The notes under the pieces: generated by a model
Told to the model about the DNA's origin: nothing
Seen by the model: only the letters and a program-made list of their open reading frames with translations
The model's database searches: none
Origin: Mariprofundus sp.
GTDB lineage: Bacteria > Pseudomonadota > Zetaproteobacteria > Mariprofundales > Mariprofundaceae
Length of the DNA: 35,952 nt
Direction of reading: 5' to 3'
Assembly: GCA_027019785.1 (NCBI GenBank)
Contig: JALUWF010000293.1
Span: forward strand, 1-35,952
Shown: piece after piece, positions 4,988 to 31,847 of the stretch
Position numbering within the stretch: position 1 is the stretch's first letter
Layout of the letters: each line of letters begins with the position of its first letter
Translations under genes and position numbers: made by a program

Positions 4988-7624
4988 TTATATCGTCTGC
5001 ATGATAGCGCGTAACGCCTCCGGTGAATACGGTTTCTGGATAAATCCCGCCAGTCCCTGTCCAACAAAACGACTCGTTGCATCCTGTTCGTTGTAACCAC
5101 TGGTAAGGATTACTTTCACATCGGCATTGGTCCTGCGCAGTTCCCTGAAACATGCCTTGCCATCCATCTTCGGCATGGTCATATCCATTAGCACCCCGAC
5201 AATCTCATCCTGGTGCTGACGATACACGTCCAGTCCTTGCAGCCCATTTTCCGCCGTAAAGATTGAAAAGCCCATATCTTCCAGCATCATTGCTGCAACT
5301 TCTCTGATAGTCTCCTCGTCATCAACGACCAGAATTGCGCCCCTGCCCTGCCATCGCGTGACTTGCTGCGTTGGCAAGCGTTGATCCACCGGTTGTTCGG
5401 AGGCCGGCAGCAATATTTTAAAGGTCGTGCCTTTGCCTGGTTCGCTGTACACCCGCAGCGCGCCATGGTGGCCGCGTATGATGCCGAGCACGGCGCTCAT
5501 ACCCAGCCCGCGACCCGTGAATTTGGTGGTGAAAAACGGATCAAATATTTTCTTCATGGTGTCAGCATCCATGCCGCAACCGGTATCGGACACTTCGATA
5601 TAGACATAGCGCCCTTGCGGCAGTGTTTCGCCGGAAATGGCAGCCTGCAAATAACTGCCATCGGCATGCATGACACCGGTAGAAAAGGAGATCACGCCGC
5701 TTTTATCACCAATGGCTTCGTTGGCATTGGTGATCAGATTCAGAATGACCTGTTGAAGTTGGGCCATATCCGCTTCAACGGCCGGCAGATGTTCAGCCAG
5801 GTGATATTTGATGACCACATTCTTCCTGATCGATACTTCCATCAATCGCGTCATCTCCTCCACCATGTCCGACAGATTGATCGCCTTGACCACAAATTTC
5901 CCCTTACCCGAATAGGCCAGCATCTGCCTGCACAAGTCCGAGGCCCGCTGCGTCGATGCCTCAATACGGGCCAGTTTCTCCTTGGCAGGAGACGCATCAT
6001 CGAGGCTGCGCTCAGCCATGGCGGCATTACCCATGATGGCGGTCAGAATATTGTTGAAATCGTGCGCAATACCGCCTGCCAGAATGCCAAGGCTCTCCAG
6101 CCTCTGGGTATGCTCCAGTTGCTGATTACGTTTGCGCTCCTCGGTCAGATCCCGCGCGATAACAGAGTAGTGAGTGACATGGCCATTGGCGTCTTTATGG
6201 GCAGTAAATACCGCTGATGCAGGCACCTCATGTCCATCCTGATGCAAAAACGTACACTCCACCTGACAACTGCCCTGCTGCTCGGCAATCGGAAAAATCC
6301 GCTCTTTCAGCCGTTTACTCTCTTCTACAGGATGAAAATCGCTGATCATCTTGTCATGAATCTGCGTATCAGGCGCCAGCCCAACCATCTTCAGACCCGC
6401 CGTATTCACATACAACACATGGCCATCAACATCAGCGGTGCCGACAAAATCGGATGTCAGCTCGAGAATGGCGGCCAGACGGGAAATCTCTTCCTCGCGT
6501 TGCCGACGTTCACTAATGTCATGAATAACCACCTGAATCACAGAATGATTGTTCCAAAAGACCGGCATCGCCTCTACTTCGGCGATGAAACTACGACCGT
6601 CAGAACGTAGCAGTTGCTCCTCAGCCAAGGTGGCCGGTTCCCGCCTCTGCATCACCTGTTGCATCCGTTCCACAATCATTTGTCGCGAATCTGCATGCAC
6701 AAAATCCATCATATTCCTGCCTGTCAAAACATCCGTCGGCAAGCCGGCCATACGACAGGCCGCAGGATTGGCATAGACAATCACGCCCTGTTCATGCACC
6801 AGCACGCCATCAGGCAGCATATCCAGCAGATGACGTTGATTCTCTTCGTTGCGGGCCAGGCGTCGATCAGCCATAGCAGACTGATCAAGCGCAGCCATCA
6901 CCAGTACGCCGCCCTGAATCAGGCCGGTAATGATCGTCAGTATCATCGCCATCAACTGTGTATCCAGTCCATTTAGCGGCCCATTCTGGAGCGGCAGCGC
7001 AAAGAAGTGCACGGCCGCCATGCCGCTGTAGTGCATGGAAGATACAGCCAAGCCCATGACCACGGCGGCCGACAGCTTAAGGCGCATCTCTCCAAACACC
7101 TGGCTTTGGCGCAGGTGATTGGAAATCCATAGTGCAGCTGAAGAGGCTGCTATAGCAATGATGACAGAGGCGGCAACCCATAGGTAATTATAGGACATCG
7201 ATGCCGCCATCTGCATCGCGGCCATGCCCGTATAGTGCATGCCGGCAATGCCGCTACCCATCAGCGTCCCCACCCCCAGCAGGCGTTTGCCGCTCAGCCT
7301 GCCGCCCCGGCGCAACGGCAGAATGCCGAGGGTCGAAAAACCAATGCCGACCAGCAGTGACAGCAGTGTCAACCCGCCATCATAACGCACAGGCACGGAG
7401 ATATTCAATGCCAGCATAGCGATAAAGTGCATGGTCCAGATTCCGGCCCCGAGGCTCACGCCAAACACCAGCGCCCACAGCGTCGTACGACCCGGGCCAG
7501 CGTCATGATCATGGATACGCGGCACTGCTGCCAGCGCCACAAAAGCGGATACGGTGGCAATCGCCACCGACAACACTACCAAAGCGTAGTTATAGCTAAC
7601 GGGCAGTTCGTGAAGCACAGCCAA
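4988..7624 (-). CDS. MHYT-domain, dual-PAS hybrid histidine kinase with C-terminal receiver
   Basis: Repeated MHY/MHF motifs in TM region (WTMHFIAMLA, GMHYTGMAAMQM, SMHYSGMAAVHF); two PAS regions; HK H-box GILAGGIAHDFNNILTAIMGNAAMAERS; REC with ILVVDDEETIREVA. Track start is TTG at 7624; an in-frame GTG lies two codons later. Confidence 0.92.
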   Translation of the reverse strand: MAVLHELPVSYNYALVVLSVAIATVSAFVALAAVPRIHDHDAGPGRTTLWALVFGVSLGAGIWTMHFIAMLALNISVPVRYDGGLTLLSLLVGIGFSTLGILPLRRGGRLSGKRLLGVGTLMGSGIAGMHYTGMAAMQMAASMSYNYLWVAASVIIAIAASSAALWISNHLRQSQVFGEMRLKLSAAVVMGLAVSSMHYSGMAAVHFFALPLQNGPLNGLDTQLMAMILTIITGLIQGGVLVMAALDQSAMADRRLARNEENQRHLLDMLPDGVLVHEQGVIVYANPAACRMAGLPTDVLTGRNMMDFVHADSRQMIVERMQQVMQRREPATLAEEQLLRSDGRSFIAEVEAMPVFWNNHSVIQVVIHDISERRQREEEISRLAAILELTSDFVGTADVDGHVLYVNTAGLKMVGLAPDTQIHDKMISDFHPVEESKRLKERIFPIAEQQGSCQVECTFLHQDGHEVPASAVFTAHKDANGHVTHYSVIARDLTEERKRNQQLEHTQRLESLGILAGGIAHDFNNILTAIMGNAAMAERSLDDASPAKEKLARIEASTQRASDLCRQMLAYSGKGKFVVKAINLSDMVEEMTRLMEVSIRKNVVIKYHLAEHLPAVEADMAQLQQVILNLITNANEAIGDKSGVISFSTGVMHADGSYLQAAISGETLPQGRYVYIEVSDTGCGMDADTMKKIFDPFFTTKFTGRGLGMSAVLGIIRGHHGALRVYSEPGKGTTFKILLPASEQPVDQRLPTQQVTRWQGRGAILVVDDEETIREVAAMMLEDMGFSIFTAENGLQGLDVYRQHQDEIVGVLMDMTMPKMDGKACFRELRRTNADVKVILTSGYNEQDATSRFVGQGLAGFIQKPYSPEALRAIMQTI

Positions 7625-30248: not shown

Positions 30249-31580
30249 TTATTGGACTTGCTCTTGTTCCGCCTGCCAGTCAGATAGCGCTTTGGTAGCT
30301 GCCGTAGTGTTGGCCTCGGAGACAATATATGCAATACACTCGCGTTCCAGCAAGTTTTCACGCAGCGATGCCATCTGCTCCTGCTGACTTCTGATCCATG
30401 TTTTGAACTGGTCGCGCTGCTCTTCCGGATACTGCTGCGACTGGCGATCCAGTTCCGCATCAACCTGAGCATCGTCGATAGAGATATCGGCGGATTCACG
30501 TACTTTCTGTAGCAATACCGACAATTTCAGGCCGCGCTCAGAACGCGCGCGCACTTCCTCTATGAACGCCTCATCCTTCAACATATCAGCCGGCGGATCC
30601 ATGCCCTGCTGTTTCATATTATCCAGCACGCGTTTGGTGGTTTCGCGCATATCCTGCTCCAGCAGCGCTTTGGGCATGCTGATGTCATGGGCTGCCAGCA
30701 ATGCATCAAGCGCCGCCTCACGCGTGGCCAAAAATGATGCCTGTCCGGCTTCTTCATCCAGGCGTTCTTTAGCATCGGCTCGCAGTGCTGCGCCATCATC
30801 AAAGCCCAGCATGACTGCCAGTGCATCTTCATCCTCCGCCGTTTCAGGCTTGCCGACGCTCTTCACCACTGTGGCAAAGACGGCATCCTTGCCGACCAGA
30901 TGGGCGGCCTGATAATCGCTCGGAAAGCTCACTTCAATAGTAACATCATCACCTGCCACGCTACCGATCAACTGCTCTTCAAAACCGGGGATAAAACGAC
31001 CTTCGCCCAACACCAGTGGCACATCCTCACCCTTGCCGCCATCAAATTCTTCTCCATCAATCACGCCGACAAAATCGATATGCAACTGATCGCCCGTTTC
31101 AGCCTTGCGTTCGGCCTCAATTTCAAACTTCACCTGCGATTTCTGCAAGCGTTCCAGCACCGAATCCACATCGCTTGTTTCGACTTCCACCGTGGTCGCA
31201 TCAAATGTCAGTTTGGAAATATCGCTCAAATCCACCGTTGGCCATGTCGTGACTTGCATGGTGAATTCGAAGCCGGAGGCCGGCTGCATAGTCGGAATAT
31301 CCAGCATCGGCTGCACAGCCGGGATCAAACCGGAGGATTCAATAGCCGCGACATAATGCGCCTGCACCAGTTCCGACACCGTATCCTCATGCAATTTTGG
31401 CCCGAACTGCTGCTTCAGGTGCGCCGGCGGCGTTTTGCCAGGACGAAAACCCGGCAACTTGGCCTGACGGCTGAGCTTCAATAACTGTTCGTTATAGATG
31501 CGGTCATATTCACCCTGCGGCACGGTGACATGCACCTGATATTCGTGACGCCCTAACTCTTTTACGTCTGTTTGAATCAT
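30249..31580 (-). CDS. tig: Trigger factor
   Basis: MIQTDVKELGRHEYQVHVTVPQGEYDRIYNEQLLKLSRQAKLPGFRPGKTPPAHLKQQFG; FKBP-like middle domain; ATG at 31580. Confidence 0.97.
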   Translation of the reverse strand: MIQTDVKELGRHEYQVHVTVPQGEYDRIYNEQLLKLSRQAKLPGFRPGKTPPAHLKQQFGPKLHEDTVSELVQAHYVAAIESSGLIPAVQPMLDIPTMQPASGFEFTMQVTTWPTVDLSDISKLTFDATTVEVETSDVDSVLERLQKSQVKFEIEAERKAETGDQLHIDFVGVIDGEEFDGGKGEDVPLVLGEGRFIPGFEEQLIGSVAGDDVTIEVSFPSDYQAAHLVGKDAVFATVVKSVGKPETAEDEDALAVMLGFDDGAALRADAKERLDEEAGQASFLATREAALDALLAAHDISMPKALLEQDMRETTKRVLDNMKQQGMDPPADMLKDEAFIEEVRARSERGLKLSVLLQKVRESADISIDDAQVDAELDRQSQQYPEEQRDQFKTWIRSQQEQMASLRENLLERECIAYIVSEANTTAATKALSDWQAEQEQVQ

Positions 31581-31593
31581 CTCATTTCTCCAT

Positions 31594-31751
31594 GTGAACA
31601 TAAAAACATTCCAAACATCAATCCAGAATGTTCACGCGACCCACGGACGGGTCGCCAAAATCATGTGCGCCAGCACTTGATTTTGTGAGCAAAGGCAAAA
31701 TGACACTTTTACCTTTGCGCACTGAATAAATGCACGGATGCAGTTATTCAG
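31594..31751 (-). promoter_or_regulatory. Structured leader/intergenic region between tRNA-Leu and tig with five consecutive hairpins
   Basis: H1 gtgaacat/atgttcac (31594..31635); H2 gcgaccc/gggtcgc (31636..31655); H3 aaaatcatgtgc/gcacttgatttt (31657..31684); H4 gcaaaggcaaaa/cttttacctttgc-type (31689..31718); H5 ctgaataaatgca/tgcagttattcag (31722..31751). Confidence 0.72.
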
Positions 31752-31763
31752 CTCCTAGCAATC

Positions 31764-31847
31764 TGGTACGAGGAGGGGGAGTCGAACCCCCACACCAAAG
31801 GTACTGGCACCTAAAGCCAGCGCGTCTACCAGTTCCGCCATCCTCGC
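31764..31847 (-). tRNA. tRNA-Leu (TAG)
   Basis: Reverse complement gcgaggatggcggaactggtagacgcgctggctTAGgtgccagtacctttggtgtgggggttcgactccccctcctcgtacca, long variable arm, encoded CCA. Confidence 0.95.

Follow-up and report, generated by a model that had tools for sequence, protein, structure and literature searches.

A hairpin array between tRNA-Leu and tig in Mariprofundus is a copy of an IS5-type MITE with candidate CsrA-binding loops

Five inverted repeats fill the space between the genes for tRNA-Leu(TAG) and trigger factor (tig) in a 35,952-nt stretch of Mariprofundus sp. DNA, here called the window. Downstream of the array are tig, clpP, clpX and lon, with purB on the other side. Does the array belong to tig, or is it something that landed there? 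The initial annotation described five near-perfect hairpins, in the minus-strand order tRNA-Leu, H5, H4, H3, H2, H1, SD and ATG, and read them as a structured leader controlling a chaperone/protease operon or as a processing array separating tRNA-Leu from the mRNA, possibly a new structured-RNA family. The sequence confirms all five repeats and their order, with tig starting at 31580. The features of the locus are as follows.

30249..31580, minus strand: tig (trigger factor), the downstream neighbour (TIGR00115, 372.5 bits)
31588-31591: SD (GGAG) of tig, outside the element
31605..31754, minus strand: whole five-hairpin element, an IS5-type MITE copy written in tig orientation (covariance model 141.5 bits, E 7.7e-36; empty site in G007)
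31605..31634, minus strand: H1, degenerate terminal-repeat hairpin of the element (MFE and family-wide stem; alternative pairing 31594-31601/31628-31635)
31636..31655, plus strand: H2 hairpin, loop C-ACGGAC-G (31642-31649), a CsrA-type ANGGAX hexaloop
31656..31685, no strand assigned: H3 hairpin, without a GGA loop
31689..31718, no strand assigned: H4 hairpin, inner stem A/T-rich, without a GGA loop
31722..31751, plus strand: H5 hairpin, loop C-ACGGAT-G (31733-31740), a CsrA-type ANGGAX hexaloop
31755..31758, no strand assigned: CTAG, the YTAR target at the tRNA-side end (sequence; family-wide YTAR duplication)
31764..31847, minus strand: tRNA-Leu(TAG), the upstream neighbour

The gap (31581-31763, 183 nt) is strongly folded. 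Its minus strand has an MFE of -72.3 kcal/mol against -47.8 +/- 4.1 for dinucleotide shuffles (z -5.9, 0 of 200 shuffles), and the plus strand comes close to this (z -5.6). For H1, the 8/8-bp pairing GTGAACAT/ATGTTCAC around 26 nt exists, but only as an alternative to the inner stem at about 31605-31634, which is found in the MFE structure and across the family. A search of the array for intrinsic terminators and sigma-70 promoters found none.

Conservation upstream of tig in relatives, the mark of a cis-regulatory leader, was not found. The five closest tig orthologues (82-87% identical protein) have tRNA-Leu to tig gaps of 16, 16, 17, 17 and 47 nt, and the hairpins are absent from all five. 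In G007, CACATGGAGAAATGAG directly follows the tRNA CCA, and the same 16 bases end the leader in the window; G007 therefore represents the empty site. A structured tig leader, or an array serving processing or insulation between tRNA-Leu and tig, is accordingly extremely unlikely. The gaps of 16-17 nt in several relatives do suggest that tRNA-Leu and tig are probably cotranscribed in the window, so the insert would lie within the tig transcript, and the more distant relative G016 carries its own, separately placed copy in the same gap, a second insertion there. Against both versions of this reading stand the hairpin-free gaps of the nearest relatives, the empty site and the copies dispersed over many unrelated loci. 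The SD lies outside the hairpins, the array lacks a terminator pattern and the conserved loops, described below, lie on the other strand. A tig-specific leader was thus rejected by synteny, with the conserved loop motif on the strand antisense to tig as a further ground. An element linked to tRNA genes was rejected as well, as a tRNA is found within 200 nt of only 5 among 107 copies.

The tRNA-Leu/tig gap of several relatives looks as if it tolerates insertions. Other, apparently unrelated hairpin-rich inserts of 90-180 nt are found there upstream of tig in L016, L022, L025 and L032. In one clade (L012-L015) the gap contains a hairpin and then a run of T (GGATGTTCTGA..TCAGAGCATCCTTTTTT), together looking like an intrinsic terminator, and the stem of this hairpin resembles the terminal hairpin of the five-hairpin element.

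To see where else the array occurs, the leader was compared by BLAST with 100 relatives, and the H5-H2 segment was found at many loci. Named records with the element come from iron-oxidizing Zetaproteobacteria, mostly Mariprofundaceae, and a few Gammaproteobacteria. A covariance model built from 54 copies was run on 78 genomes of Zetaproteobacteria and, with an E cut-off of 1e-6, detects it in 40 of them. Relatives have up to at least 36 copies per genome, 36 being the number of candidates scored. In the genome studied here the number of matches is 10 with the E 1e-6 cut-off and 13 when this is relaxed to E 0.001; a match within the window at 5580-5747 (12.7 bits, E 0.046) was taken as chance. 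The element is about 155 bp long, has no coding content and no transposase gene, and by a simple ORF call is intergenic in 137 of 160 copies. A left-end fragment of it lies directly upstream of another tRNA-Leu gene in the same genome (L002:1454-1501).

The ends identify the family. Intact copies run from approximately GGAWRCKCTGAWWAA to its inverse, with YTAR on the flanks. With fixed anchors, 30 copies have YTAR at each end, and in 27 of these the two 4-mers are identical, against a permutation mean of 8.9 and a maximum of 19 in 10,000. The terminal inverted repeats are shared with autonomous IS5 elements: GGAGATGCTGATTAA in L146 and in its MITE neighbour, and GGATACTCTGAAAAACT in L164. L146, in G004, has an intact transposase of the IS5 family (NCBIfam NF033581, 323.7 bits; cut-off 140), and the MITE copy lies directly beside it. 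IS elements with the same ends and targets are also present in G017 (L164, frameshifted) and G034 (L166, internally deleted). The family thus combines shared terminal repeats, a 4-bp YTAR duplication, small size, lack of a transposase, multiple copies and an IS5 partner transposase. A REP/RAYT or IS200/IS605-type hairpin element was rejected because the family has inverted terminal repeats, YTAR duplication and DDE (IS5) partners. The array between tRNA-Leu and tig is an old inserted copy of this non-autonomous IS5-type MITE of about 155 bp. The ends of the window copy are degenerate and match at the level of the family. Its left end is on the tRNA side; the right end has decayed, so the right boundary is approximate, and the copy of the target sequence on the tig side is now unrecognizable. 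From the matches in ends and targets, we infer that autonomous IS5 elements with the same terminal repeats would mobilize the family in trans into YTAR targets.

What, then, is kept in the body of the element? In the 54 copies, 33 of 54 pairs have changes on both sides, with 283 cells changed on both sides against 93.6 in shuffled and 42-72 in slid structures. Paired cells amount to 90%, compared with 34-45% in slid structures, but this percentage is biased upward because the structure was derived from the same sequences, and the double changes are the stronger evidence. The pairs were counted on a consensus structure drawn up manually from the hairpins that the copies share; an RNAalifold consensus on the MAFFT alignment was poor. 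Judged on the aligned copies, the compensatory changes show that the body is kept for its fold and not for its sequence. Rfam, at gathering and relaxed thresholds, returned only the tRNA and chance matches. With this and the strong covariation, the suggestion of a new structured-RNA family was borne out.

Mismatches tell the two strands apart. On the tig strand, A-C outnumbers G-U by 109 to 61 parsimony events (p 3e-4). In 62 further matches the cells are 130 to 57, and the model behind their alignment favours G-U on the tig strand, i.e. against the observed asymmetry. The A-C cells of the tig strand are G-U pairs on the opposite strand, which is the more stable one in 38 of the 54 copies; in the window copy it is the tig strand that folds more stably. 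We rejected an RNA function for the tig strand, as G-U is depleted relative to A-C there and the loops lack GGA. The strand data point to RNA, or single-stranded DNA, of the strand that is antisense to tig in the window. The asymmetry is about 2:1, and a strongly selected RNA would be expected to show a stronger one. Both kinds of mismatch are frequent, as they would be in an ordinary MITE derived from IS5 whose palindromes have no RNA function and persist through template-switch repair of quasi-palindromes or because transposition needs cruciform or single-stranded DNA hairpins. The clear terminal repeats, target duplications and IS5 partners also suit this explanation, which we nevertheless regard as unlikely on the evidence of the loops and hosts that follows.

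On the strand antisense to tig (plus in the window), the H5 and H2 loops read A(N)GGAX and are closed by C-G, giving two such loops placed directly on a C-G closed stem. A(N)GGA is found on this strand in 132 (H5) and 139 (H2) of 160 copies. On the tig strand the counts are 2/160 and 3/160, in H4 and H3 they are 1-3/160, and in shuffled loops the motif reaches 8-9%. The full C-A(N)GGAX-G is present in 117/160 (H2) and 121/160 (H5). The four motif columns carry about 1.5-1.9 bits, and the N and X columns 0.3-0.9 bits. A common form of H5 in the family is UACAUGGACGU, and some lineages have a pentaloop form without N (GGCAGGATGC). In published work, a high-affinity CsrA/RsmA (RsmE) site consists of an A(N)GGAX loop seated immediately on a stem closed by C-G (PMC4005645), and the loops of the element are close to the CsrA SELEX consensus RUACARGGAUGU (PMC7652899). 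An ordinary MITE fails to predict a fixed A, GGA and closing C-G while N, X and the stems vary.

Two other origins of the loops were weighed: they may bind a different RNA-binding protein, or the TCC/GGA loops may be relics of transposon ends recognized by the transposase, in which TCC stands next to YTAR. The loop TCC-N-T does resemble the IS5-type ends, which also have TCC-YTAR. GGA loops persist, however, in copies whose ends lack TCC (e.g. CAGCCCGTTGA), the N position is free to vary and is not restricted to a pyrimidine, and the register on the C-G closed stem is that of CsrA sites. We consider this pair of possibilities very unlikely.

Our preferred reading, which we hold to be probable, is that of a mobile IS5-type element whose antisense RNA is a candidate two-site CsrA-binding module, either a decoy or a portable CsrA site. 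RNA of the strand antisense to tig would form the H2 and H5 hairpins with their CsrA-type loops, spaced by H3 and H4. We saw no promoter of its own for the strand with the GGA loops; that RNA might arise where read-through or antisense transcription crosses one or other of the many copies. It would bind CsrA through H2 and H5, perhaps with one dimer bridging both. Through the putative binding, the dispersed copies could act as a decoy in trans, or a copy could serve in cis as a CsrA site that is portable, and the benefit might lie in the trans decoy, in cis control of neighbours or in control of the element itself. Copies are oriented almost at random relative to flanking genes (codirectional 42 vs 26, p 0.07), and the loops persist either way, which makes a general cis role doubtful. 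Loops kept whatever the gene orientation would suit the ordinary MITE as well; together with the near-random orientation, they fit a trans role, or selection acting on those copies that serve as active sources. In the sense transcript of tig the loops read UCC, and therefore no direct CsrA control of tig is expected from the window copy. With this non-binding complement, the element would be mainly a structured spacer in the tRNA-tig transcript.

We also examined hosts outside the order. Eight genomes from other families of the phylum carry the element (G041, G048, G057, G135, G169, G171, G193 and G219). Their copies keep the hairpin order with different stem sequences, and several have quite different ends, e.g. 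CAGCCCGTTGA or CAGGCTGTTGAA, flanked by CTAG, TTAG or TTAA. The loops are mostly kept in these distant hosts despite the different stems and ends; the exceptions are G135, G193 and part of G219, where they have changed or disappeared. In the gammaproteobacterial L272, L273, L274 and L204 the core is conserved with terminal repeats (CAGCCCGTTGA, CAGGCTGTTGAA, GAGCCTGTCGC) unlike the IS5-type GGA ends. A further step is to see here a transposable family of putative CsrA-binding RNAs whose conserved cargo, the two-site module, moves between genomes and classes with differing transposon ends around it; this we hold to be evenly balanced.

Some copies are longer. Among the long copies examined, five (L041, L042, L092, L104 and L065) contain an additional insert that adds one more C-AGGA hairpin to the same strand, or two in the case of L092, and L219 and L220 have the insert in reverse orientation. 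This nested, hairpin-rich insert of about 70 nt lies between H3 and H2 in L041, L042, L104 and L092 and inside H4 in L065, L219 and L220. Found in either orientation and in most cases bringing another C-AGGA loop, it may be a mobile or repeat element in its own right.

To what extent does the element occur together with csrA? The genome studied here has two csrA genes. Among Zetaproteobacteria at least 85% complete, the element is present in 33 of 51 genomes with csrA and in 0 of 9 without (p 3e-4); by genus the counts are 12 of 14 and 0 of 4 (p 0.005). All eight hosts outside the order encode csrA, and one of them, G169, has nine csrA-family genes. In two incomplete genomes, G067 (74%) and G073 (69%), the element is present and csrA was undetected. 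The association is partly phylogenetic and counts as support, not proof. An ordinary MITE predicts neither this association nor the strand asymmetry.

The element resembles IS5-family, Correia/NEMIS, ERIC and Coxiella QMITE elements, the structured bacterial MITEs that have been reviewed (PMC10969869), in being short, non-autonomous, multicopy and mostly intergenic, with inverted ends, target duplications and stable RNA folds. Some known structured MITEs affect mRNA decay, and CsrA is unmentioned in the same review (PMC10969869). Unlike those MITEs, the element has five separate hairpins with strong compensatory change and CsrA-type loops on one strand, and its core is kept under different terminal repeats. 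Like CsrB/CsrC and RsmX/RsmY/RsmZ, it has A(N)GGAX loops on a C-G closed stem, in the hexaloop and pentaloop forms found in RsmZ (PMC4005645). Those RNAs are dedicated sRNA genes with more sites, whereas the element is transposable, lacks a known promoter and carries two sites, or three in certain long variants. The Rfam CsrB, CsrC and Rsm models gave no match to it, so it would work like CsrB/Rsm RNAs but is not filed as one.

The closest precedents are TwoAYGGAY and the suggested CsrA binding of the IS200 5'tnpA RNA. TwoAYGGAY RNA (RF01731) is a proposed CsrA binder with two hairpins bearing AYGGAY-like loops (PMC4333381). The element likewise has two such hairpins, but two others sit between them; TwoAYGGAY is not described as a mobile element in that paper, and with its Rfam model 11 loci gave no match up to E 10 and the window region none at E 5. 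For the IS200 5'tnpA RNA of Salmonella, CsrA binding was raised as a possibility (PMC12594629). It too is a structured RNA from a transposable element, but it derives from a transposase mRNA and not a MITE, and its sites are described only as minimal GGA trinucleotides. In a literature search mostly outside subscription journals, we found no report linking MITEs with CsrA or Zetaproteobacteria with MITEs, none describing the element and none describing a CsrA antagonist of Zetaproteobacteria. The element is a new family that joins structured MITEs and putative CsrA-binding RNAs, and as a mobile CsrA decoy it appears to be undescribed.

Bacterial MITEs are usually viewed as passive debris that occasionally affects nearby mRNAs. 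If compensatory selection maintains the fold of a MITE, and its loops fit the CsrA site in two classes of proteobacteria, mobile DNA would be linked through it to a global post-transcriptional regulator; the element also points to candidate CsrA antagonists in Zetaproteobacteria. If the two-site module is indeed cargo, mobile DNA would supply hosts that have csrA with further decoys of a global regulator, or further sites for it to bind.
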